From: an uncultured Erysipelotrichaceae bacterium
Lineage (GTDB): Bacteria > Bacillota_I > Bacilli_A > Erysipelotrichales > Erysipelotrichaceae
DNA length: 43,163 bases
Assembly (NCBI GenBank): GCA_902786245.1
Contig: CADABS010000014.1
Coordinates: forward strand, 1 to 43,163
Reading direction: 5' to 3'
This document shows, in pieces, positions 11,542-40,574 of this stretch. The position numbers were made by a program, and so were the translations under genes. The notes under the pieces are model-generated. The model saw only the letters and a list, made by a program, of their open reading frames with translations. It had not been told where the DNA came from and did no database searches. Each line of letters begins with the position of its first letter. Position 1 is the first letter of the stretch.

Positions 11542-13662
11542 TCAGCGCGTACATACGATGACGCTCAGTGCCGGAACATCGACGGTGCTGCTGTCTTCTT
11601 TTGCTTCTCTGCCGTCCGCATCAAATACCACATGCCAGCCCGGCTCAAATGAATATGTTTTCTCGACCATGCCCGGATTGATCAGTACCCTGACCATCTG
11701 GGTACCGGTTGCCGGATCGCCGCAGGTGATGTCATAGAAGACAATGCCGCCTTCCGCTACCGAAAGCCTGACGAACTGCTCGATCTGACGGGCATTGGTC
11801 AGCCGGAATGCCCGGTATTTCCGCCGCAGCGCAATGCACCGTTTCGTATACTCAATGATCCCGCGGTTGATTTCCGCCCGCTGCCAGTCCATGCGGTTGA
11901 TATCATCACCGGCGTTATAGGAATTCGAGTTGTCATTCTTGGTGCCGCAGAATTCCATGCCGCCATGCAGGAAGGGAATACCCTGGGCCACCATGGTCAC
12001 TGCGATCATCATCTTCTGCCGCAGCTGTCTGGTTCTTCTGTCTTCATTTGCACAGCATGCATGCATCTTGTCCCAGAGCGTATTGTTGTCATGTGTTTCC
12101 AGGGCATTGATCGACTGGACCGGATGTTCAAACCGCTTATAATACGGATCTCCCAGTACATTCGCGCTCAGTGCGCTCAATGAACCGAAAGCCATAACCA
12201 GATCGCCTGTCACATAGCCTTTTTCATACTTCTGGTCATCGCTGGTCTTGCCTTTGATGATATCCCGGAAGAAATCATTGAAATGGCCGATGCCCGGCAT
12301 CTTTGCCTGATTGGCGATGCTTGCCTTCATATCCGAAGGAAGGATCGTAGGCATATCCCAGCCTTCTCCGTAGATCATGGCATCCGGCTTGATGGATCTG
12401 GCTGTTTCCAGCACGGCATTCATCGTTTCGATATCCAGAATGCCCATCAGATCGAAACGGAATCCGTCGACCGAATAGATCTTCATCAGACAGCGGATCA
12501 CATGCAGGATATATCTTCTGGCCATGATCTTTTCCGACGCAAAGTCATTGCCGCAGTATGTGCCGTTGGAAAGATATGCATTTTCGTTGTAGCGGAAATA
12601 GTAGTACGGCACCAGCTTATGGAACGCAGATACCTCTACCCCGTACATATGATTGAATACGACATCCAGATTCACCCGGAGGCCGTGCTTATGGAATGTA
12701 CATACCAGCTTCCGCAGTTCCTTGATTCTTGCATACGGATCATCCGGATCGCTGGAATAGCTTCCTTCGGGAACCATGAACTGAATCGGGTCATAGCCCC
12801 AGTTGTAATTCTTCTCGGGATGGAATTCATCCACGGTGATGAAGTCCATGACCGGCAGAAGCTGGATATGGGTCACACCCAGCGATGCAAGATAGGACAT
12901 GCCGGTCGGCAGATCCCCGTAGACGGTATTTTCTTCGCTGAGGGCAGCGAATGTACCATGCGTCTTTGTGCCGCTGAGCGGACTGGATGTCATATCCCGT
13001 ACGCTTGTTTCATAGATGACCGCATCCGTTCCCGTCACTTCGCTGGTCAGTGTATAATCATGGATCTCCGCAATTTCATTGAGATCGATGACTGCGCTCT
13101 CCATCGCATTGCCGGTGGAACTGTATGCATACGGATCGATGGTTTCCTGCAGAGAACCGTTGCAGTCGATCAGATATGTATAGGTATCCCGTTTCAGATC
13201 GCCGTAGATGCGGAGCCTGAACACGCCTTTGTCCGTACGCCGCATGGCATGAATCTCGGTCGTGTCATTATGATGCAGCTTCAGGAGAATTTCATTCGCT
13301 GTCGGCGCCCAGACCGCAAAATCCGTATATTCACGGTGATATACCGGGCCCAGATCATTTCCGCTGTAGGCAAAGCGGGTTGCAAACTGTTTCGTATTCA
13401 CGATCATGCGGAATACCAGCGGAACGCACAGTCCGTGCGATTCCCGCACAAAGTACCGCCTGCCGAATTCAAGTCCGGCCGGACCGGTCAGTTCATAGCG
13501 GATCTGCGAATCATGATCCTGCACACTCATCACGATCAGTTCCGCGCAGAACCCGTGATCTCCGACAATATAGAAAGAATCCGACCTTCCGCCGTAGAAA
13601 TTTCGGTTGATCAATACCCGTATTTTGCCGAAGTCATCCAGATATGCAGTCATACTTACCAT
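11542..13662 (-). CDS. pulA: Type I pullulanase / glycogen debranching enzyme (GH13)
   Basis: Hydrolyses alpha-1,6 links in glycogen, limit dextrin or pullulan. The 706-residue protein has an N-terminal beta-sandwich region with a CBM48-like part (YTDFAVWAPTANEILL), the type I pullulanase signature YNWGYDP (about residue 286), DVVFNHMYG, nucleophile region DGFRFDLMG (aspartate about 404), acid/base IYGEGWD (glutamate about 433) and ETHDNNTLWDK. No signal peptide, so it acts in the cytoplasm on stored glycogen. I choose the ATG at 13662 because GAGGG lies seven bases before it. It follows the glgP terminator by only about 20 bases, so its transcription may rely on read-through. Confidence 0.95.
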   Translation of the reverse strand: MVSMTAYLDDFGKIRVLINRNFYGGRSDSFYIVGDHGFCAELIVMSVQDHDSQIRYELTGPAGLEFGRRYFVRESHGLCVPLVFRMIVNTKQFATRFAYSGNDLGPVYHREYTDFAVWAPTANEILLKLHHNDTTEIHAMRRTDKGVFRLRIYGDLKRDTYTYLIDCNGSLQETIDPYAYSSTGNAMESAVIDLNEIAEIHDYTLTSEVTGTDAVIYETSVRDMTSSPLSGTKTHGTFAALSEENTVYGDLPTGMSYLASLGVTHIQLLPVMDFITVDEFHPEKNYNWGYDPIQFMVPEGSYSSDPDDPYARIKELRKLVCTFHKHGLRVNLDVVFNHMYGVEVSAFHKLVPYYYFRYNENAYLSNGTYCGNDFASEKIMARRYILHVIRCLMKIYSVDGFRFDLMGILDIETMNAVLETARSIKPDAMIYGEGWDMPTILPSDMKASIANQAKMPGIGHFNDFFRDIIKGKTSDDQKYEKGYVTGDLVMAFGSLSALSANVLGDPYYKRFEHPVQSINALETHDNNTLWDKMHACCANEDRRTRQLRQKMMIAVTMVAQGIPFLHGGMEFCGTKNDNSNSYNAGDDINRMDWQRAEINRGIIEYTKRCIALRRKYRAFRLTNARQIEQFVRLSVAEGGIVFYDITCGDPATGTQMVRVLINPGMVEKTYSFEPGWHVVFDADGREAKEDSSTVDVPALSVIVCTR

Positions 13663-31696: not shown

Positions 31697-33238
31697 TCAG
31701 ACAGGATATTCCCGCTGCGCATCCGCGCGGTTTTTTTCTTTCTGTTCTTCCGATTCATCCACTCTGAAATATGGGAAATGCACAATCGCATCGTGTTCCG
31801 CAAACAGACCGAAGAAACATCCGGTAAAGGTACCGCGCATCGCTTCTGTGGAAAGCAGCTGGGTGCTGCCGGTGCCGATGATCTGCAGATGTTCCGCATC
31901 CTTTCCGGCACAGAATGTATACTTCTCCCTTTCCGCACGGATCATTAATACCAGAGAATCCGTATCCGGGAAGAAATGCTCTTGCGATGAAGCGGTAAGA
32001 TCCGCTGCTCTGCGCTTCAGAAAAACCGCCAGGCCGCCGGTCTCTGCCCGCACGCAGAGATCATAATGGTGCTCATCGGTATGATAGACGCAAAGGCCTG
32101 CCGTTCCCGTACCTTTCAGAGTTATCTCTGTGATACAGTCAAGTTCCATCTGTGTCTGCCGCACACCGATCCAGGAGGGAGAAGCCGGTTCATCCAGGGT
32201 GATGTCCGTGCCTTCAATTGTCAGACCGTTTCCGAAATGATACTTTGTCATGTCCGGATTCCGCAGCCATGACCAGCGGGGATGCACTGTTTCAAAAGTA
32301 TCCGCAAACGCATTTTCAAACACGGTATATTCACTGCTTTCATCTGCCATGAGGGCATGGATCTCTTCTTTATTATTGATAAGCGGCCAGCCGTCTTTCC
32401 ATGTCACTTCCGCAAGCATCGTCTCCCGGCCGATATGGTGAAGCTGGGCGGCAGAAGGCCTCACCGCATGGAATACGGCATACCACTTTCCGTTTTCCGC
32501 TTCAGCCATGTCCGCATGTCCGACGCACTGGAATATGCTTTTGTCATTGTCGCGATGGGAAAGGACCGGGTTGTACGGACAGCTTTCATACGGTCCCCAT
32601 ACACATGTACTTCTGGCGCAGGTGACCATATGCCCGTATTCCGTGCCGCCTTCCGCAATGAGCAGATAATACATGCCGTCCTTTTTATAGAGATGCGGCC
32701 CTTCCGGATTCCTGCCGCCGGTGCCGTACCAGATGTATTTCTTCTCACTGAGAATGCTTCCGTCATTTACATCGATTTCAAAGAGAACGATGCCCTGTTT
32801 TCCATTCTCATCAAAACCAGTACCGGCATAGTACGCTTTCCCGTCATCGTCGAAAAACAGTGTCGGATCGATCCCCATATGACGGATCGAGACCGGTTCA
32901 CTCCATTCGCCGTGAATGTCATCTGTACTGACCAGGAAATTCGGTGTCCCCATGGGAAAGCGGCAGACATTGGTCGTGATCATATAGAATCTTCCGTTAT
33001 GTTCGCGGATGGTCGGCGCGAAGACGCCGGCGGAAGCCGGACAGTTTCCCAGTTCCAGCTGGGAGTCCCGTGTCAGCACATGGCCGATCTGTTTCCAGTT
33101 TTTCAGATCCCGGCTCTGCCATAAAGGCACACCCGGGAAGTATTCAAAGGAACTGTTCACCAGATAATATTCACCATTGGCATAGCAGATACTGGGATCG
33201 GGATAAAATCCCGGAATAATCGGATTCTGATACGGCAT
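31697..33238 (-). CDS. GH43 family glycosidase (beta-xylosidase / arabinofuranosidase type)
   Basis: Five-bladed propeller glycosidase likely to cleave xylose or arabinose from hemicellulose oligosaccharides. The 513-residue protein has the catalytic base motif NPIIPGFYPDPSI (aspartate about 15), the pKa-modulating aspartate in GIDPTLFFDDDG, the acid in RNPEGPHLYKKDG, and QCVGHADMAEAENGKWY, all intact, followed by a beta-sandwich C-terminal domain (about 320-505) with LTIEGTDITLDEPASPSWIGVRQTQ-type features. No signal peptide, so it acts in the cytoplasm on imported oligosaccharides. AGAGG lies six bases before ATG. The dead esterase gene directly upstream suggests a former hemicellulose operon. 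Confidence 0.9.
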   Translation of the reverse strand: MPYQNPIIPGFYPDPSICYANGEYYLVNSSFEYFPGVPLWQSRDLKNWKQIGHVLTRDSQLELGNCPASAGVFAPTIREHNGRFYMITTNVCRFPMGTPNFLVSTDDIHGEWSEPVSIRHMGIDPTLFFDDDGKAYYAGTGFDENGKQGIVLFEIDVNDGSILSEKKYIWYGTGGRNPEGPHLYKKDGMYYLLIAEGGTEYGHMVTCARSTCVWGPYESCPYNPVLSHRDNDKSIFQCVGHADMAEAENGKWYAVFHAVRPSAAQLHHIGRETMLAEVTWKDGWPLINNKEEIHALMADESSEYTVFENAFADTFETVHPRWSWLRNPDMTKYHFGNGLTIEGTDITLDEPASPSWIGVRQTQMELDCITEITLKGTGTAGLCVYHTDEHHYDLCVRAETGGLAVFLKRRAADLTASSQEHFFPDTDSLVLMIRAEREKYTFCAGKDAEHLQIIGTGSTQLLSTEAMRGTFTGCFFGLFAEHDAIVHFPYFRVDESEEQKEKNRADAQREYPV

Positions 33239-34347
33239 AGGTTTCCTCTTTCTAAAATATCAAATTCTTTTACAAACGGACGTTCTTTTGAACAGACATC
33301 CCACCGCGGGAGGCCGGCCCGGTTGGGATCGCCTGTTTTCATGAACTGTGTCCAGTAATCCAGCATCTGTTCTGACAGCGCATAATTTTCTTCTGCCCAC
33401 GGACGCCAGCATCTCTTCATCGTTCCCATCATATACCACAGCTCGCAGGAATGCCACGCGCCATTCTCATCGCCCGGCAGATCTCTTTTGAAGTAGTAGA
33501 CATACGCCGGTTTTCTGCCGAGTTTCTCCAGCTGATGGCTGAAGGCAATACTTCCCTTATATAAAGGCGAACCTTCCGGCTTCTCCGTGTTTTCATCTGT
33601 CAGGATATCATCCTTGACAGATCCAAGCAGAACCGGAATATCATGAATCTTTCCTTCATCCATGATTCTGTAATAGCCATCATCCAGCACCTTTTTGTCC
33701 AGGGTCGGTGTCAGGAAAAGCCCCTGTGCCTTCGGCATGGCTTTCGCAAAGAACGGTCCGATGGATTCAATGAGCTTTTCCGAAGACAGTGATATTGTTT
33801 CTGTCGCCGCCGAAAGCTTCGATGTTTTCATAGATCCAGTCGAGGGCCGCGATCTGATCCAGCGTTCCGTAATTGCCGGATGTGCCTGCCTCTTCGCTCA
33901 GCCATCTATGTGCAAGAAAGCCGAAGATATTGCAGCGGTATTCAACGCTGACAAAGATCACCCGCGTTTGCAATACGCTTCCCCGTCAAATTCTTTTTCA
34001 AAACTGAAACCGCCCATGAAGGCACCGCCATGGATCCACATGGCCGCCGGGCAGTTCTTTGCGTTCTTCGGTGCCCAGATATGCAGGTACAGGCAGTCTT
34101 CGCCGACGGATGCGCTGAACGCCGGATCGTCATAGAACTCTTTGTCGTAGAGTTCCGAAGGCAGACTCTCCTGCATGCACTTATTGCGGAAGCTGTCGGC
34201 TTTCAGCACACCTGTCCATGGCGCAGGCTTTTCCGGAGCTTTCCATCTTCTTCCGCCGACCGGTGCCTCTGCGTACGGGATTCCCCTGTATTCTGTATAT
34301 GTTCCGCGGCCGATGCCTTCAATCATTCCGTATTCTGTTTTAACCAT
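33239..34347 (-). pseudogene. Type-B carboxylesterase, frameshifted and internally deleted
   Basis: Three pieces in different frames make up one gene. The N-terminal piece (33958-34347) has YRGIPYAEAPVGGRRW, VGEDCLYLHIWAP and the oxyanion HGGAF. The middle piece (to about 33767) has VIFVSVEYR and IEAFGGDRNNITVFG. The C-terminal piece (from about 33830) has GLFLTPTLD, VLLGSVKDD and AYVYYFKRDLPG. One base is missing near 33962. After ITVFG the nucleophile motif GESAGG and roughly the next 80-100 residues are absent and the reading frame shifts. Since the catalytic serine is gone the gene is dead. The C-terminal frame runs into the GH43 start. Such esterases remove acyl groups from hemicellulose, which fits its neighbour. 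Confidence 0.88.
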
Positions 34348-34579: not shown

Positions 34580-35100
34580 CGCCATTTATGGCTAATACTG
34601 ATTTTATCATGACTGCTTCATCGCCGTCTTCCAGCCATTGGAATACGTCTTTTCCGCTGATCTTGTTTCCTTCTGCGTTGCCGGCAGTTTCAAAGTCTTC
34701 CGGACGCATGTTCTTCGCCTCTGCGACCCTTGTCAGGAAATCCAAGGCAGAAGACCTTGCGCGCATTGATAATCTTTCCGGCAGTCGCAGTCAGCTGTTC
34801 ATCGGTGACGCTTTCTTCGGTACGGGCAAGTGCTTTGGCATATTTCTCAGCCATGCCACCTCCGCTGTTCTCGTTTTTCCGGTTCTGCAGATCCGAGGAA
34901 AGCTGAAACTGAAACTCGTTGAAGCCGGGCTTTTTGGCAAATCTTGTCAGAGCAGCCGGAGAAACATCAATATCTTTCACAATTTCGTTATACGAAGAGG
35001 ATACAAACTTACCGGGATACTTTTTCAGTTTTTCGTATATTGCTCTGTCTGTTTTGGTATAGGAGGAAACCTTTGTATCAATCAGGTCAAGTATATTCAT
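34539..35100 (-). pseudogene. RpiR-type regulator remnant fused to a possible ROK-like fragment
   Basis: The 5' part encodes a good RpiR-type helix-turn-helix domain (MNILDLIDTKVSSYTKTDRA, then SYNEIVKDIDVSPAALTRFAKKPGFNEFQFQ) and the beginning of a SIS domain (INARKVFCLGF), which then breaks off near 34750. A second frame, shifted by one, follows to 34539: RSSALDFLTRVAEAKN and ISGKDVFQWLEDGDEAVM resemble the C-terminal part of a ROK sugar kinase or regulator, though that match is only by eye. The layout is best explained by an internal deletion joining two neighbouring genes of a sugar-utilisation locus. RpiR proteins sense phosphosugars. Confidence 0.7.
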
Positions 35101-35168
35101 GTTCGTTTCCAATCATTTCAGAAATTTAATGTTATTTTGAAATGATTTTCAACCGGATGGCTATACAT

Positions 35169-35894
35169 TCATTCCCCGAAATCAGGAAATTCAATCTGGC
35201 TGACCGGTTCCCATGCACCGGTGAAATTATTCATTGCCAGGATATTATCCGCATCCAGTGTGTTCTCATCCACGATGCGGAAATCTTCCGGGAAACAGCC
35301 GAGGATATGCGAACCGCCTCTTGTCGGTGTTTCATCATCAACAACCGCAAAGTATACTTTTCCCTCCTCAAGTACCACTGCCCCCGCAACGGACATCGTT
35401 ACATTCTCCGGCAGTTCACTGCTCTCCTTTTCAGAAAGATATTCCTGTTTCTCCACTGATTCTGGATTCTGTCCGGCCGCATACTGTTCATAGGTTGCGG
35501 TACCTCCGACCCGGATGTACTGATATTCTTCTCCTTCTGTCAGATTCCCCTTGATGCTTTTAAGTACTTCAAATTTTCCATAGGAATAGATCTGTCCGCT
35601 GTAGATGTCCAGATCATCGTAGTATGTATCTCCGCCGTCAATGGTAAGAATCCGAATGATTGCCTTGTTTGCAATTCTTTCTTCTCTGGCAGGTACGTAA
35701 TCAAAGGATACGCCTATTTTTAGTGTCTTTTTATCATCCACGGCTTCAGCAGGTATCTCCTGTTCGGGTTCCCGCTCCTCCGGCACAGTTTCACTCAAAG
35801 GTAATCCGGATGTTTCTTCCTGCACATCAGCACCGCCGCAGCCTGCAGCAAAAAGCATGAACGCCGCAAATCCATTAACAAATATCTTTTTCAT
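35169..35894 (-). CDS. Lipoprotein, paralogue A of the kinase-linked pair
   Basis: I do not recognise this 241-residue protein. It has a lipoprotein signal (KKIFVNGFAAFMLFAAGC, cysteine at about residue 19), a glutamate- and proline-rich linker, then a globular domain of about 180 residues. It is paralogous to the protein at 38068-38808: both have IDG...Y...D, IYSYGKFE, EEYQYIRVGGTATYEQYAAG and the ending NNFTGAWE. At DNA level a 24-base stretch encoding CCGGTGAAATTATTCA differs from the other copy at one position. It lies 128 bases downstream of the kinase gene and is probably on the outer face of the membrane, where it could sense or mask a signal for the kinase. AAAGGA precedes the ATG by nine bases. 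Confidence 0.8.
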   Translation of the reverse strand: MKKIFVNGFAAFMLFAAGCGGADVQEETSGLPLSETVPEEREPEQEIPAEAVDDKKTLKIGVSFDYVPAREERIANKAIIRILTIDGGDTYYDDLDIYSGQIYSYGKFEVLKSIKGNLTEGEEYQYIRVGGTATYEQYAAGQNPESVEKQEYLSEKESSELPENVTMSVAGAVVLEEGKVYFAVVDDETPTRGGSHILGCFPEDFRIVDENTLDADNILAMNNFTGAWEPVSQIEFPDFGE

Positions 35895-35996
35895 TGTGTG
35901 CCATCCTTTCACGGACCATACAGATTTACAATAGTATTCCGCTTCGTTGCACTTATTTTTTTATGTCTGTTATTATCATTTCAATATTTCTGCAGC

Positions 35997-36051
35997 GAAC
36001 GGCCGCTGTATCCGCTGTCCGGTCATGATTTCAGTGTCAGAAGAATTCCTG
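35997..36051. repeat. 55-bp direct repeat, copy A (kinase 3' end)
   Basis: This 55-base segment matches 39028-39082 at 49 of 55 positions without gaps and in the same orientation. It contains the last codons and stop of the kinase gene (GILLTLKS) and the first bases after it. Confidence 0.9.
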
Positions 36052-37219
36052 CATCTGCCGGTGTCTGTACATTTCTCAAAACAGACCAGGCTGTTTCCTG
36101 CAGCAATAAACAACAGCCTGCATCTGTATGCATAAACTGTTCAATCTCATTTCCATGACTGCCAAAGTATAAAACAAGCATGTTTTCACGCAGTTTCAGA
36201 CAGATGGAAATATCACTGTTTCCGCACTTGACCAGATAATCTGTCAGATACAGCATCAGAGTACTGATATCCGCTTCCTTAATACCGGTCAGGTCGGAAA
36301 GATTTGTTTCGAACCTGATATCTGCGTCCGGGTACAGAAGTTTCATCTGTTCAGCAGCTGTTTGAAAAAAGCCGGAAAGATATGATTTCTGACGGGCTGT
36401 GATCTGATCGATTTCTTTGAGCAGCTGTGCAACAGCCGGTTCACCGCACAATGAAGTATTCCTGAGTGCTGCTGCCGAATGGAGCAGATTATGTCTGATC
36501 CGGAGTTCTTCATTTTTCTGCCTGCAGAAACCATCCGATGCTTTCCGGATGACGGACAGACAGTTTTCAATTGCCCGGATATGCTGTTTCTGCTTTTCTT
36601 TCAGGCAGAAATCATATGCAATCATAACTGCAGCCACAGCAATCAGCGGGGAATACAGACCTGCGAAATGGACATTGGTATCCGGCGATCTGTGCATTCT
36701 TTCAAGAAAAACCTGAAACAGAACACAGACTGCTGCAATCAGGCAGACAGACAGATTCCCGGGTGTTTCCAGAATATCTTTCAGCATGACTTTGCTGAAA
36801 AGATAAACCGACAGTATTTTCATAATCAGTTCCGGAACCAGAGCAATCTGCCCATAATGCGCCGCAATACCCGCGGGCACCATCACAGCAACCGATGTAC
36901 TAACCTGATCAACGCTGTTCACAGTCAGATAAACGAGCATACTGATCAGCATGGCTCTGCCATATGTTGTTTTCAATACAGCTTTTTCATACAGAGCTGT
37001 CGGTAGAAGAAAGAAAAACTGCATGTAAAGTGAATACAGCGAGACCGCACCGGGATCAGTCAATGACGGATCAAAACGCCACAGAACTTCACAGAGAAAA
37101 GCATTACCCAGAATCAGCAGCACTGAGAAAATCAGAATCCTTTTGCCGCTCAGGCGTTTTGCACATATGCCCGGAAGAATAAACGGTATTATTCGCAGCG
37201 ATAATAACTGTGTCATCAT
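36023..37219 (-). CDS. AgrC-like membrane sensor kinase with degenerate ATP-binding domain
   Basis: The 398-residue protein has about six membrane helices in residues 28-205, a coiled linker, a histidine box IRHNLLHS (histidine 243), and a GHKL-like C-terminal domain. This is the layout of AgrC/FasB-type sensors that pair with LytTR regulators. The ATP-binding part is abnormal: where such kinases have two asparagines in the N box, this one has tyrosines (324 and 328, in LMLYLTDYLVKC), and the glycine-rich G boxes are not recognisable (GNEIEQFMHTDAGCCLLLQ). It may therefore not phosphorylate itself, or may act as a phosphatase or ligand-gated scaffold. The ATG overlaps the regulator's stop by four bases. 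No AgrB or AgrD peptide gene is nearby. Confidence 0.85.
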   Translation of the reverse strand: MMTQLLSLRIIPFILPGICAKRLSGKRILIFSVLLILGNAFLCEVLWRFDPSLTDPGAVSLYSLYMQFFFLLPTALYEKAVLKTTYGRAMLISMLVYLTVNSVDQVSTSVAVMVPAGIAAHYGQIALVPELIMKILSVYLFSKVMLKDILETPGNLSVCLIAAVCVLFQVFLERMHRSPDTNVHFAGLYSPLIAVAAVMIAYDFCLKEKQKQHIRAIENCLSVIRKASDGFCRQKNEELRIRHNLLHSAAALRNTSLCGEPAVAQLLKEIDQITARQKSYLSGFFQTAAEQMKLLYPDADIRFETNLSDLTGIKEADISTLMLYLTDYLVKCGNSDISICLKLRENMLVLYFGSHGNEIEQFMHTDAGCCLLLQETAWSVLRNVQTPADAGILLTLKS

Positions 37220-37896
37220 TGCAGGACCCTCCGTATAAATTCAAGCTGTATTACTGACCTCATTCTCCTGCTCGCAAAGAGAAGAGTGCCGTCCGTCAAA
37301 GTGATTCTGTCTTCGTCGATGGAATGTATATGATATAGATTGACCAGTTGTGACCGGCTGATCATGCACATATATGCAGGCATTTCATCCTGCAGTTCAC
37401 GCAGTGATTTTTCCAGCACCTGAAAACATTGATGTTCTGCTGTATATACGTACATTCTTCTGTTTTCCATCGATACATACAGTATTTTCATCGGATGCAC
37501 ACGTGTATCGCCATTCTTTGTCCGAAGCAGAAAGGTATCCGCAAAATACAGATAATGAATCTTCCTCATTCTTTCTGCCAATTGTTCATCACTGTCATTC
37601 TTGTCCAGAAAACCGATCACCTTATATCCGAAAGCATCTTTGGAACGGGCTGCCTGGATACTGGTAAATATCACATAAGATGCACGCGGTATCAGAAACG
37701 CAAATGAATCAATCATGTCCGTTTCTCCGATATATACATCACAGAGAAGAAGATCGCAGTGCGCGCATTCCTGAAGGAAGCATTCAGCATTTTCATATGT
37801 CCTGATCTCAGCATTTCCGAAGACAGAACTGCATATTGTTTTCAGTTTTTCAGCATCCTGTCTGCTGTCTTCAAGTATCGCAATCGTCTCATTCAT
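37216..37896 (-). CDS. LytTR-family response regulator (AgrA-like)
   Basis: The 226-residue protein has a receiver domain (residues 1-115) with the acidic pair E9-D10, phosphoacceptor aspartate 53 in LLLCDVYIG, the threonine-serine in VIFTS and the lysine in GFLDKN, so it looks competent for phosphorylation. The C-terminal LytTR domain (about 125-222) has ILYVSMENRRMYVYT, FQVLEKSLRELQDEM, ISRSQLVNLYHI and DGTLLFASRRM, typical of this DNA-binding fold. I start it at 37896, eight bases after GGAG. LytTR regulators usually control secretion, bacteriocin or virulence genes; the flanking lipoproteins are the obvious candidate targets here. Confidence 0.93.
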   Translation of the reverse strand: MNETIAILEDSRQDAEKLKTICSSVFGNAEIRTYENAECFLQECAHCDLLLCDVYIGETDMIDSFAFLIPRASYVIFTSIQAARSKDAFGYKVIGFLDKNDSDEQLAERMRKIHYLYFADTFLLRTKNGDTRVHPMKILYVSMENRRMYVYTAEHQCFQVLEKSLRELQDEMPAYMCMISRSQLVNLYHIHSIDEDRITLTDGTLLFASRRMRSVIQLEFIRRVLQ

Positions 37897-37921
37897 ATCT
37901 GCCTCTCCTTCTTCAAAATAC

Positions 37922-37927
37922 ATAATA
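37922..37927 (-). promoter_or_regulatory. Candidate -10 of the regulator-kinase operon
   Basis: TATTAT on the minus strand lies 25 bases before the regulator start, downstream of the terminator at 37987-38008. No acceptable -35 is visible 17 bases upstream, which would fit an activator-dependent promoter, though this is weak evidence. Confidence 0.4.
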
Positions 37928-37986
37928 CCTGCAGGCTGAGCAATTGCCTCCGTCTATTCGGTCAGAATAACTATCCAGCGGTATTG

Positions 37987-38008
37987 AAAATCCCGCATCA
38001 TGCGGGAT
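37987..38008 (-). terminator. Terminator after lipoprotein paralogue B
   Basis: A perfect hairpin, ATCCCGCA with TGCGGGAT and a 3-base loop, is followed on the minus strand by TTTTC. It separates the lipoprotein gene from the regulator-kinase operon. Confidence 0.85.
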
Positions 38009-38067
38009 CATTCATGTTCAGATTGCTGTAATATGTCTTCTCTGCCTGATTGGTGCAGATTCGTTTA

Positions 38068-38808
38068 TCATGCAAGAATTGCAATCACCTCATCAAGGTT
38101 TTCCCATACACCGGTGAAATTATTCAGAACAAGTCTTCTTTCCAGATCAACTTCCCGCAGACCTCCCTGCAGGCCGCAGATCGGATATCCGCCGATGATT
38201 GCGGACATTTCAGAAGGTTCAAAGAAGGCGAGATATGTTTTCCCTGATTCAATGAAAATATCATCAATTGCATCCTCATATACATATTCCGGAATTGCTT
38301 TGCCCGCTTCTTTCATAGCGTTAAGCCGTTTTTCAAGTGAGGATTCATCTCTGCCGGCCGCATAGTCTTCCCATGTACCGATTCCGCCGAACCTTGTAAA
38401 TGTATATTCCTGTCCGGGTTCCAGTTCTCCGTCTTTGTACACCTCAATTGTTTCAAACCGGCCATATGTATAGATAGAACCATGCATGTCACGCGGTTCA
38501 AAATAGGAACTTGTTCCGTCAATACTGCAGACCTTGATCAAAGCGACAGACGTACTGTATTCTGCCAGCTTATCCGGGTGATAATTGTCATATGCAAGAG
38601 AAACAGCCATTAGGGCTTTCATCACATTGTCATCATTCCATATATCAGACTGCAATTCCACAGGCACTGACTGTTCCGGCTGAACCGCATTTGTTTCTTC
38701 CGTTTCATCAGAAACTGCATTCTGCATAGTTTCCGGCACTTCCATGGCATGCACACAGCCGCACAATGCAAATAATGCACAGAATGCTGTAATCATATTC
38801 CTTTTCAT
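38068..38808 (-). CDS. Lipoprotein, paralogue B of the kinase-linked pair
   Basis: Unrecognised 246-residue protein, paralogous to the one at 35169-35894. It has a signal with a lipobox ending ALCGC (cysteine at about residue 18), an acidic linker, and a domain sharing SIDG, IYTYGRFE, GQEYTFTRFGG, DYAAG, the SLEKR stretch and the C-terminal LNNFTGVWE. It ends in a clear terminator and lies upstream of the regulator gene in the same orientation. I choose the ATG at 38808 because GGAGG lies eight bases upstream; a GTG three codons earlier overlaps that site. A fossil of a kinase 3' end lies 240 bases upstream, matching the kinase-lipoprotein order of copy A. Confidence 0.8.
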   Translation of the reverse strand: MKRNMITAFCALFALCGCVHAMEVPETMQNAVSDETEETNAVQPEQSVPVELQSDIWNDDNVMKALMAVSLAYDNYHPDKLAEYSTSVALIKVCSIDGTSSYFEPRDMHGSIYTYGRFETIEVYKDGELEPGQEYTFTRFGGIGTWEDYAAGRDESSLEKRLNAMKEAGKAIPEYVYEDAIDDIFIESGKTYLAFFEPSEMSAIIGGYPICGLQGGLREVDLERRLVLNNFTGVWENLDEVIAILA

Positions 38809-39027
38809 CGTATTCACCTCCGTATTTATCTGATTACTGATAAAGCTGATCGATTTCGCTGTTATCTGTTAATTGGATCGTATTCACTGATTTCGGCATA
38901 CTGCAGGAACACATGGCACTGTAGGGTGACAGGTATAAATCCAGTTCTTTGATAGAGTTTTATCATTTTTTATCAGAATACTTCATTGATGTAAACATTC
39001 GTTGTCTAAACGGTCAGGTATACGTCT

Positions 39028-39082
39028 GAACGGACGCTGCAGCCGCTGTCCGGTCATGATTTCAGTGCCGGAAGAATTTCTG
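39028..39082. repeat. 55-bp direct repeat, copy B (fossil kinase 3' end)
   Basis: Matches 35997-36051 at 49 of 55 positions. In the frame of the kinase it would read EILPALKS and stop, compared with GILLTLKS in the intact kinase, so it is a leftover of a second kinase gene. It lies 13 bases beyond the ATPase stop codon. The remaining gap to lipoprotein B (38809-39027) shows no gene. Confidence 0.85.
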
Positions 39083-39095
39083 TTCAGAAGCAGGT

Positions 39096-40400
39096 TCAGT
39101 CCTTCAGGCAGAGGAACGGTATGACTTTTACTCCTCCTGATGTAGTGTATGCCATCGGTGCATTCGCACAGATCACAATCAGAGAACTTGGCTCCCGGTA
39201 AATTACACCAGGATGCTCAGGGTTGTTTAATGCTTTTTCATTGTGTTCTCTGATCAGTTCTTTAAAACGAAGAAGATTTCTTTCCGCAGCCGGAATTGAA
39301 TTTGTCCCGGTTTTGATTTCAATAAGCGCATATCTTCCGTCTTCCAGCTCATAAACCGCGTCAGCCTCCAGACCTGTATCATCTCTGTAGTGTTTCACCT
39401 TTGCATGATGCGCTTCCGCAAATGCAAGCAGATCTCTCAGAACAAGGTTTTCAAACAGATGTCCGAAAACATCCAGATCATTTATAAAATACTCCGGTGA
39501 AATGCCCAATGCCGCAGCCGCAATAGAAGGATCCACAAATATATGCTTTTTTGCCGCACGGATTGCAGTTTTAGATCTTAACTGCGGCATCCACGCATCG
39601 ATATCATGGATAACGTACAGCTGTTCAAGAGCGCTGACATAACTGGTCAGCGTAGGATCAGTAACACTCTGTGTGGCCTTCACATCCGCATAAATAGCTG
39701 TCTTTTTCGCAAGTGTTGCCGCATTTCTCGCGTACGACTGCAAAAGTATTCTGGCGGTTTCGGGATTACGGTCTACATGATCGATCGTGCTGATATCTTT
39801 CGAATAAATCTGCCGGAAATAGTCTTTGGCAATTTCCAGTTTCCCTTCTCTGTCTTTGATTGACAGACATCTCGGCCATCCTCCGCGGCAGATTATATCA
39901 AACAGATCTTCCAGTTTTCCGGGATTCAGTGCCGCAGGTTCATACGACTGATTATCGAGAATTTCAGTCAGCGATACTCCGCCATTTGAGTCTCCGCTTT
40001 CCCAGGCAGTCATAGGATACATCCTTAGAGTTGTAATGCGGCCGGTCCCGGTATGCGGCGTTTCTGTTTTTCTGCTTGTTGAACCGGTAAGATAATAGCT
40101 TCCCACAGTTTCCGGATGATCATCACAGTCTTTTCTGATTGCACCCCAGATTTTAGGTGCGTCCTGCCATTCATCAAAAAGAATCGGCTTCTCATTTCTG
40201 AAAAACAATGTAGGCGCTGTATCCGCAATCTGCAGATAACCGTCCCGTCTTTCTTCATCCTGAAACTCAATCAGTGTTTTGCAGCGTTCTGTGCAGGTTC
40301 GTGTCTTTCCGCAGCCTTTCGGTCCTGTGATATGAATTGCATTGAATGCTTTCACTCTTCTGTCAATTACCTGGTCTGCTAATCTTCTGATATATTTCAT
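39096..40400 (-). CDS. DUF4143-type AAA ATPase
   Basis: The 434-residue protein belongs to the dispersed bacterial/archaeal ATPase family with an N-terminal AAA domain and a C-terminal DUF4143 domain. Walker A is GPKGCGKT (residues 26-33), the Walker B region is PILFDEWQDAP, the sensor region is YYLTGSTSRK, and the C-terminal half has DPSIAAAALGISPEYF, LFENLVLRDLLAFA and the nuclease-like TGLEADAVYELEDGRYALIEIK. That last segment, D then E-x-K, resembles a PD-(D/E)xK core. The cellular role of the family is not established; it is patchily distributed and probably spread by transfer. AGAGG lies six bases before ATG. It replaces the body of a lost kinase gene. Confidence 0.88.
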   Translation of the reverse strand: MKYIRRLADQVIDRRVKAFNAIHITGPKGCGKTRTCTERCKTLIEFQDEERRDGYLQIADTAPTLFFRNEKPILFDEWQDAPKIWGAIRKDCDDHPETVGSYYLTGSTSRKTETPHTGTGRITTLRMYPMTAWESGDSNGGVSLTEILDNQSYEPAALNPGKLEDLFDIICRGGWPRCLSIKDREGKLEIAKDYFRQIYSKDISTIDHVDRNPETARILLQSYARNAATLAKKTAIYADVKATQSVTDPTLTSYVSALEQLYVIHDIDAWMPQLRSKTAIRAAKKHIFVDPSIAAAALGISPEYFINDLDVFGHLFENLVLRDLLAFAEAHHAKVKHYRDDTGLEADAVYELEDGRYALIEIKTGTNSIPAAERNLLRFKELIREHNEKALNNPEHPGVIYREPSSLIVICANAPMAYTTSGGVKVIPFLCLKD

Positions 40401-40447
40401 GGTTTTCCTCTTTCGCTTTCATTGTTTATTGCATTTTATTGATTTCG

Positions 40448-40562
40448 GCAGTTTCATTTTATCATTTTCGGCATTTTTATTTTAGTAATTTCTGCATTTT
40501 CATTTTATTAATTTCGGCATTTTCATTTTATTAATTTCGGCATTTTCATTTTAGCTTTTTCG
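40448..40562. repeat. Five tandem 23-bp repeats upstream of the ATPase gene
   Basis: Units at 40448-40470, 40471-40493, 40494-40516, 40517-40539 and 40540-40562; the third and fourth are identical (GCATTTTCATTTTATTAA then TTTCG) and the others differ at a few bases. A degenerate sixth copy continues to about 40431. On the minus strand every unit contains a TAAAAT or similar -10-like hexamer. There is no gene in 40401-40605. Confidence 0.9.
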
Positions 40563-40574
40563 GATTTTAAATTG

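Follow-up and report, generated by a model that had tools for sequence, protein, structure and literature searches.

Orphan Tim-like lipoproteins beside a LytTR regulator in an uncultured Erysipelotrichaceae bacterium: a variant of the Mtz-Tim system

Overview

The stretch analyzed here (the window; contig CADABS010000014.1, 43,163 nucleotides) is contig C14 of the genome of an uncultured Erysipelotrichaceae bacterium, which comprises 2.75 Mb in 102 contigs. On its minus strand, four genes follow each other along transcription: lipoprotein A, a LytTR response regulator, a multi-pass membrane sensor, and lipoprotein B. Both lipoproteins belong to the Tim-like family, the tethered partners of secreted metzincin proteases (genes tim and mtz). 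The four genes are probably an eroded tandem island of regulator–sensor–mtz–tim units, in which LytTR-driven Tim-like lipoproteins bind metzincins supplied from elsewhere.

The Tim-like lipoproteins and their predicted fold

Lipoproteins A and B are paralogues, aligning over their whole length with 32% identity across 250 residues (E=6e-33). They carry the lipoboxes AAGC and ALCGC and, hence, share the membrane anchor of Tim; some Tim relatives are anchored by a transmembrane (TM) segment instead. A sequence-only reading of this locus had described the same four genes and a set of motifs shared by both lipoproteins, and all of these were recovered. It had placed the lipoproteins on the "outer membrane face"; since the organism is Gram-positive, this is to be read as the outer face of the cytoplasmic membrane.

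Searches of Pfam, NCBIfam, and the PDB sequences with the Tim-like domain gave no family match beyond signal peptides, and a known enzyme family was rejected for the lipoprotein on this ground. Lipoprotein A and the domain of lipoprotein B were modeled separately with AlphaFold2, and the models were compared with the PDB by structure, using Foldseek and VIA. Both models are β-barrels whose top matches have the NTR fold: complement C345C, agrin NtA, PCOLCE, TIMP-1, and TIMP-2. The scores are moderate (Foldseek probability 0.99–1.00; VIA Z ~8). The match spans the entire domain and ranks first for two paralogues of 32% identity. The matches of lipoprotein B include TIMP-2 and agrin NtA—the latter annotated as "structurally related to N-TIMP-1"—and other OB folds (PriB and SSB) rank close behind. 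Residues ~25–84 of lipoprotein A are predicted to be disordered and would form a long tether. As judged by these models, the window lipoproteins are membrane-tethered Tim-like proteins with a predicted TIMP/netrin (NTR) fold.

The source genome contains seven genes with a Tim-like domain: two in the window, three behind a metzincin gene (contigs C1, C39, and C66), one solitary (C42), and one fused to BlaR1 (C70). In addition, a tim 3′ remnant lies on contig C15 (L076:6989-7114), divergent from another LytTR response regulator. Among 196 genomes of the family, 21 carry a total of 30 full-length Tim-like loci, with weak matches (E 1e-3 to 1e-6, model positions 1–70) discarded as signal peptides. 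Most Tim-like genes elsewhere are orphans, that is, without an adjacent mtz, and 23 of the 30 loci have no LytTR regulator in the fetched stretch. These neighborhoods rule out the lipoprotein as part of a general LytTR-linked module, as the sequence-only reading had proposed; its proviso that homologues might lie mostly away from LytTR genes turned out true, and its other proviso, a match to a known enzyme family, did not. In this genome, the link between LytTR regulation and the lipoproteins is real.

The metzincin partner

The sole recurrent close neighbor of Tim-like genes encodes a secreted metzincin. It lies directly upstream, often overlapping by a few bases, and features the motif HExxHxxGxxH, the Met-turn SIM, and a weak Pfam similarity to matrixins. 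At 17 of 17 metzincin loci found, a Tim-like gene is located directly downstream. A protease profile run over the 196 family genomes yielded nine mtz loci, 9/9 with a Tim-like gene next downstream, and both further loci among 395 genomes of the class (G612 and G642, from another family) have the same arrangement. Four loci were reached via the protease and not via the lipoprotein (G049, G612, G642, and an Enterococcus-labeled record), and all 4 carry the Tim-like gene directly downstream. An order-wide search added four more mtz-tim loci; when the first mtz profile was run across the phylum, only the source genome was returned. The recurrent partner is, hence, the metzincin. The lipoproteins had been proposed as ligand-binding or inhibitory partners of the sensor: they do come from a family whose members partner with proteins, but the sensor is not the recurrent partner.

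Plasmids, phages, and viral contigs were scanned as well and gave no mtz or tim except in the Enterococcus-labeled record; the phage and viral-contig scans had no Listeria match, in collections that lack the Listeria Tim sequence. This record (OR846610.1, "Enterococcus phage Efs 1-1-1") carries a metzincin–Tim pair and reads like a bacterial chromosome contig: its content includes exodeoxyribonuclease VII genes, a polyprenyl synthase, a methyltransferase, and argR-like and recN-like genes. A further pair occurs in the Saccharibacteria metagenome-assembled genome UBA6223 (L104:7097-8483), where the protease is 41 to 52% identical to those of Erysipelotrichaceae; horizontal transfer is the likely route. 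In other genomes, mtz-tim or tim lies beside XRE or XRE-TPR regulators, some of them divergent (L056, L060, L061, L066, L124, and L158), and control of these genes is possibly peptide-responsive. An extracytoplasmic function (ECF) sigma factor gene is found beside mtz-tim in other genomes, and a pair of ATP-binding cassette (ABC) genes follows mtz-tim in L060 and on contig C8 of the same-genus genome G747.

Intact mtz-tim pairs of the source genome are located on C1 and C39. The metzincin gene of C66 (L016:7109-7764) has an internal TAG stop ahead of the catalytic part, and the tim gene downstream is intact. In the window, directly upstream of both lipoproteins, there are mtz 3′ scars in place of an intact metzincin gene, and, therefore, the window genes are orphan Tim-like genes and not a complete Mtz-Tim pair.

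Scars and origin of the island

The first scar precedes lipoprotein A and corresponds to the part of a metzincin between its Met-turn and its stop, both included (Table 1). None of 2000 shuffles (0/2000) scored as well, and its counterpart on C1 reads SIMC...VNTVQLTDNSSVVSLYSY followed by a stop. The second scar ends at the start of lipoprotein B and has its counterpart in AVVNLYGG-stop on C66. The third is a copy of the sensor 3′ end: a 55-nt repeat at 39028-39082 is 89% identical to 35997-36051. This repeat, at the end of the interval covered by the sequence-only reading, had been left uninterpreted. As two mtz scars and a sensor 3′-end repeat are present, the locus is, by sequence, an eroded tandem duplication of a regulator–sensor–mtz–tim unit; a regulator–sensor pair and the mtz gene of each copy have been deleted. 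This deletion explains the lack of a metzincin in the window.

The same scars raise the possibility that the island is decaying and non-functional and that what is left after the loss of mtz is drifting: the tim genes, the regulator, and the sensor. Two mtz scars and one sensor scar, the degenerate sensor, a broken carboxylesterase and a truncated RpiR gene next door, the internal TAG in the C66 mtz, and the tim remnant on C15 all fit such a decay. However, both lipoproteins, the regulator, and the sensor are full-length open reading frames (ORFs) with conserved domain residues, the lipoprotein A promoter and its box are intact, and in other genomes most Tim genes are orphans, which means that Tim also has a role on its own. 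Such decay is a live alternative that we consider unlikely.

LytTR boxes and promoters

LytTR systems use 9-mers 12 bp apart, located 4 to 10 bp upstream of the −35 hexamer (PMC6193735). In the source genome, pairs of 9-mers such as ACCGTTCAG and ACCGAATAG, spaced 11 to 12 bp, precede lipoprotein A, the solitary tim of C42, mtz-tim on C1 and C66, the regulator–kinase pair of C66, an ABC gene pair on C75, a lipoprotein gene on C70, and, on C39, a small ORF followed by mtz-tim. The distance from the second 9-mer to the −35 hexamer is 10 bp at 9/9 tabulated sites, counting the degenerate site of the window regulator, and it was counted in favor of a regulatory link since it matches the published layout (PMC6193735). 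The −35/−10 spacing was read as 17 bp at all nine, with some hexamers far from consensus and C39 the poorest.

A stricter first box pattern gave one match only. The pattern HCCGWWYRN{12,13}MCCGWWYR gave 16 matches genome-wide and 1 for the reversed control; 8/16 lie at promoters of tim, mtz, regulator, ABC, or lipoprotein genes and the other 8/16 in or at unrelated genes. It missed the box at the regulator promoter, which has one good half and one degenerate half. No convincing LytTR boxes were found before tim or mtz in other genomes. The window regulator would be the candidate binder of these boxes. The earlier proposal of the lipoproteins as regulated output is supported by the boxes that precede both lipoprotein A and the regulator.

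Two of these sites deserve mention on their own. The C70 lipoprotein (L020:98-897, 234 residues, not Tim-like) stands behind a well-formed LytTR tandem-box promoter as a further regulon member. On C39 (L019:7739-8239), the box precedes a 63-residue ORF, which lies ahead of mtz-tim and diverges from agrB and its regulator–kinase pair; the N terminus of this ORF is repeated in a 256-residue protein (12765-13535) and near agrB on C40.

Regulator, sensor, and Tim fusions

The regulator combines a receiver with a LytTR DNA-binding domain and is, hence, a LytTR response regulator. The receiver has a weak Pfam score (0.022), yet the acidic pair, the phospho-Asp, the Ser/Thr, and the Lys are retained. 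Translation probably starts at ATG 37896, because the −10 element of the promoter overlaps the upstream ATG. The closest relative in the same genome is the C66 regulator beside mtz-tim (29% identity, 2.6e-26). Contig C66 reads box–mtz–tim–box–regulator–kinase until the contig edge; C75 begins within the 3′ end of a kinase gene, after which come a box and two ABC genes with 30 to 37% identity to those of G747. We infer that C66 and C75 join.

The sensor retains the histidine motif IRHNL. It reads YLTDYL where four sister kinases show NxxDNA, the G box is missing in the alignment, and no Pfam ATPase domain is matched at E<=10, whereas the four sister kinases match HATPase_c_5 at 1e-8 to 1e-18. 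Thus, it lacks the ATP-binding N and G boxes of an AgrC-type GHKL kinase. The C75 kinase 3′ end is as degenerate. No convincing homologue of the sensor was found, and none in the 196 family genomes. As earlier stated by the sequence-only reading, the stretch contains no AgrB, AgrD, or bacteriocin genes; AgrB–regulator–kinase systems are present elsewhere in the genome. Given a sensor without ATP boxes and a receiver with its phosphorylation residues, either another kinase may phosphorylate the regulator or the sensor may act by binding, by analogy to LytTR regulatory systems.

The latter leads to a live, though rather improbable, alternative: the Tim lipoproteins would serve the degenerate sensor as its sensory partners. 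The sensor would detect whether Tim is free, bound by a protease, or cut and would retain or release the regulator, as known for the LytTR systems with membrane inhibitors in Streptococcus mutans. The N and G boxes are lost in the window sensor and in its C66/C75 sister, both degenerate sensors are flanked by a Tim gene on one side and a LytTR regulator on the other, and pairs of LytTR regulators and membrane inhibitors with tandem boxes are known (PMC6193735). Tim domains are also fused to BlaR1 (with BlaI) and, next to an ECF sigma factor, to an anti-sigma-like protein, and these fusions point the same way. Against this stand the phosphorylation residues kept by the receiver, the lack of such a sensor near most Tim homologues, and the absence of a sensor homologue from the family genomes.

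On C70 (L020:7030-8922), a 630-residue BlaR1/M56 peptidase carries a Tim domain as its C-terminal outer sensor part, and a BlaI gene lies directly upstream. On contig C42 of G747 (L154:2735-4445), the gene after an ECF sigma factor encodes an anti-sigma-like protein that has a single TM segment and a Tim domain at its C terminus (hidden Markov model (HMM) match 2.3e-18). Together with the XRE and ECF neighbors, these fusions support a role in sensing or binding an extracellular partner, as judged for the fusions by domain architecture alone. A broader proposal is that TIMP/NTR-fold Tim domains are outside sensors of metzincins that feed three unrelated signaling routes into transcription: an ATP-less LytTR sensor that reads free lipoproteins, the BlaR1 fusion, and the ECF anti-sigma fusion. 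This generalization is doubtful.

Proposed mechanism and remaining alternatives

In the favored reading of an eroded, LytTR-driven Tim island, the regulator would drive lipoprotein A from its tandem-box promoter. The regulator's own promoter would drive the regulator, the sensor, and—presumably by read-through—lipoprotein B. At the cell surface, metzincins encoded on C1 or C39, or made by neighboring cells, are the most likely ligands of the Tim domains, which, as orphan receptors or inhibitors, may shield the envelope or adjust it. The most likely function is to bind proteases, either for protection or as a receptor. In addition, the lipoproteins may be released by cutting at the ~55-residue tether, by analogy to Listeria.

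Several points weigh against this reading. The structural models were built from 4-sequence alignments with a domain pLDDT (predicted local distance difference test) of ~70 to 85, and no Foldseek match reaches E<=0.001. The likeness to Listeria Tim (LMRG_00714) is drawn from its published description, and the binding of metzincins by the window lipoproteins is putative. The box pattern was derived from some of the sites that it later matched, leaving C70 and C75 as the independent matches, and lipoprotein B has no clear LytTR box of its own. The genome has several LytTR regulators, among which the window regulator was chosen for the boxes by inference. Finally, the island is visibly eroding, and its function may be partly lost.

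A release from the tether could also serve another end: once switched on by LytTR, the released lipoproteins may weaken the cell wall, the role proposed for Tim of Listeria, and so promote lysis or competition. Mtz-cleaved Tim of Listeria sensitizes cells to lysins and penicillin (PMC8235301), and the long disordered tethers (residues ~25–84) would suit such a release. The protease that would free Tim is, however, missing from the locus and would need to come from C1 or C39, leaving this alternative live and distinctly unlikely. That LytTR genes and lipoproteins are neighbors by chance, as the 23 of 30 homologous loci away from LytTR genes might suggest, is highly improbable in view of the boxes that eight promoters share at a fixed spacing, an independent regulator–kinase–tim–mtz association on C66, and the tandem duplication of the whole unit.

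Features of the locus

Table 1. Positions of genes, promoter elements, and scars in the window
Feature	Position	Strand	Remarks
AAA_14/DUF4143 ATPase	39096-40400	minus	flanking gene; precedes lipoprotein A
Sensor scar	39054-39080	minus	last codons EILPALKS-stop (sensor end GILLTLKS-stop); within the 55-nt repeat
Tandem LytTR box, lipoprotein A promoter	39006-39034	minus	TCCGTTCAG-11-ACCGTTTAG, then 10 bp, TTTACA, 17 bp, TAAAAA; 0/100 shuffles as good
mtz scar 1	38834-38920	minus	Met-turn to stop, SAMCSCSMPKSVNTIQLTDNSEIDQLYQ-stop; no catalytic HExxH; HMM match to positions 197-216 of 218
Lipoprotein A	38068-38808	minus	Tim-like; predicted TIMP/NTR-fold domain, long tether; ORF may begin at GTG 38817
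Terminator-like hairpin	37990-38008	minus	ATCCCGCATGATGCGGGAT + TTTTC, between lipoprotein A and regulator; direct sequence reading
Candidate LytTR box, regulator promoter	37954-37982	minus	first half degenerate; ACCGCTGGA-11-ACCGAATAG, 10 bp, TTGCTC, 17 bp, TATTTT; seen by eye
LytTR response regulator	37216-37896	minus	ORF extends from 37923; Pfam LytTR E=7.5e-11
Multi-pass membrane sensor	36023-37219	minus	histidine present; GHKL N box (NxxDN) and G box lost
mtz scar 2	35909-35935	minus	last codons TIVNLYGP-stop, ending at lipoprotein B start; 1/2000 shuffles as good
Lipoprotein B	35169-35894	minus	Tim-like; ORF may begin at GTG 35912

On the minus strand beyond lipoprotein B, a carboxylesterase gene is split into two ORFs by a frame change (33157-34347), and a truncated RpiR-type regulator lies beside it (34690-35112). 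Upstream of the AAA/DUF4143 gene, ~6 copies of an A+T-rich 23-nt repeat (TTTCATTTTATTAATTTCGGCAT) occupy 40406-40570.

Comparison with known systems

The Mtz-Tim pair of Listeria monocytogenes (LMRG_00713/LMRG_00714) was described in 2021, and, hence, the statement of the sequence-only reading that no system of this kind is described does not hold for the lipoprotein (PMC8235301). As in the relatives of the window genes, the lipoprotein, TIMP-like and tethered at its N terminus, directly follows a secreted metzincin that has HExxHxxGxxH and the Met-turn. Mtz removes ~50 N-terminal residues of Tim, which sensitizes the cells as noted above (PMC8235301). Prophage copies of mtz-tim have agr-operon promoter DNA upstream, and LytTR (AgrA) control was already suspected (PMC8235301); this probable control is a further likeness, whereas the chromosomal Listeria copy is under a CI/Cro-like pair. 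The window differs by lacking metzincin genes, by two Tim-like genes beside their own LytTR regulator and sensor, and by seven Tim-domain genes in one genome. In the literature library searched, no later publications on Listeria mtz-tim were found.

The LytTR Regulatory Systems HdrRM and BrsRM likewise pair a LytTR regulator with a downstream membrane protein that has no functional kinase domain, and autoregulation is likely (PMC6193735). Their 9-mer direct repeats, spaced by 12 bp right ahead of the −35 hexamer, resemble the boxes of this genome, with one half degenerate at the promoter of the window regulator. The window regulator differs by a receiver with phospho-acceptor residues, and the membrane protein is a kinase-derived relic and not a DUF3021/DUF2154 protein. 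AgrC-AgrA shares the operon of a multi-pass sensor and a LytTR response regulator, but the window lacks AgrB/AgrD and its kinase has lost the N and G boxes.

Vertebrate TIMP/NTR proteins and matrixins resemble the system in the predicted fold of the lipoprotein domain and in a metzincin partner with Pfam matrixin similarity. There is no sequence similarity to vertebrate TIMP, and, because the N-terminal cysteine is a lipidated anchor far from the domain, inhibition through TIMP Cys1 and zinc cannot work alike. The C70 paralogue corresponds to BlaR1-BlaI, a BlaR1/M56 peptidase with an upstream BlaI, and differs in its Tim-like outer sensor part.

The mtz-tim pair is, hence, already known, and the window holds an orphan-Tim, LytTR-controlled variant of it. 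An uncharacterized lipoprotein family is now tied to a single 2021 precedent, and a matrixin-like protease with a TIMP-like partner emerges as a recurrent pair in Bacilli that reaches Saccharibacteria. The BlaR1–Tim and anti-sigma–Tim fusions suggest a sensing role for the NTR fold in bacteria, and the LytTR promoter boxes render the regulation directly testable.

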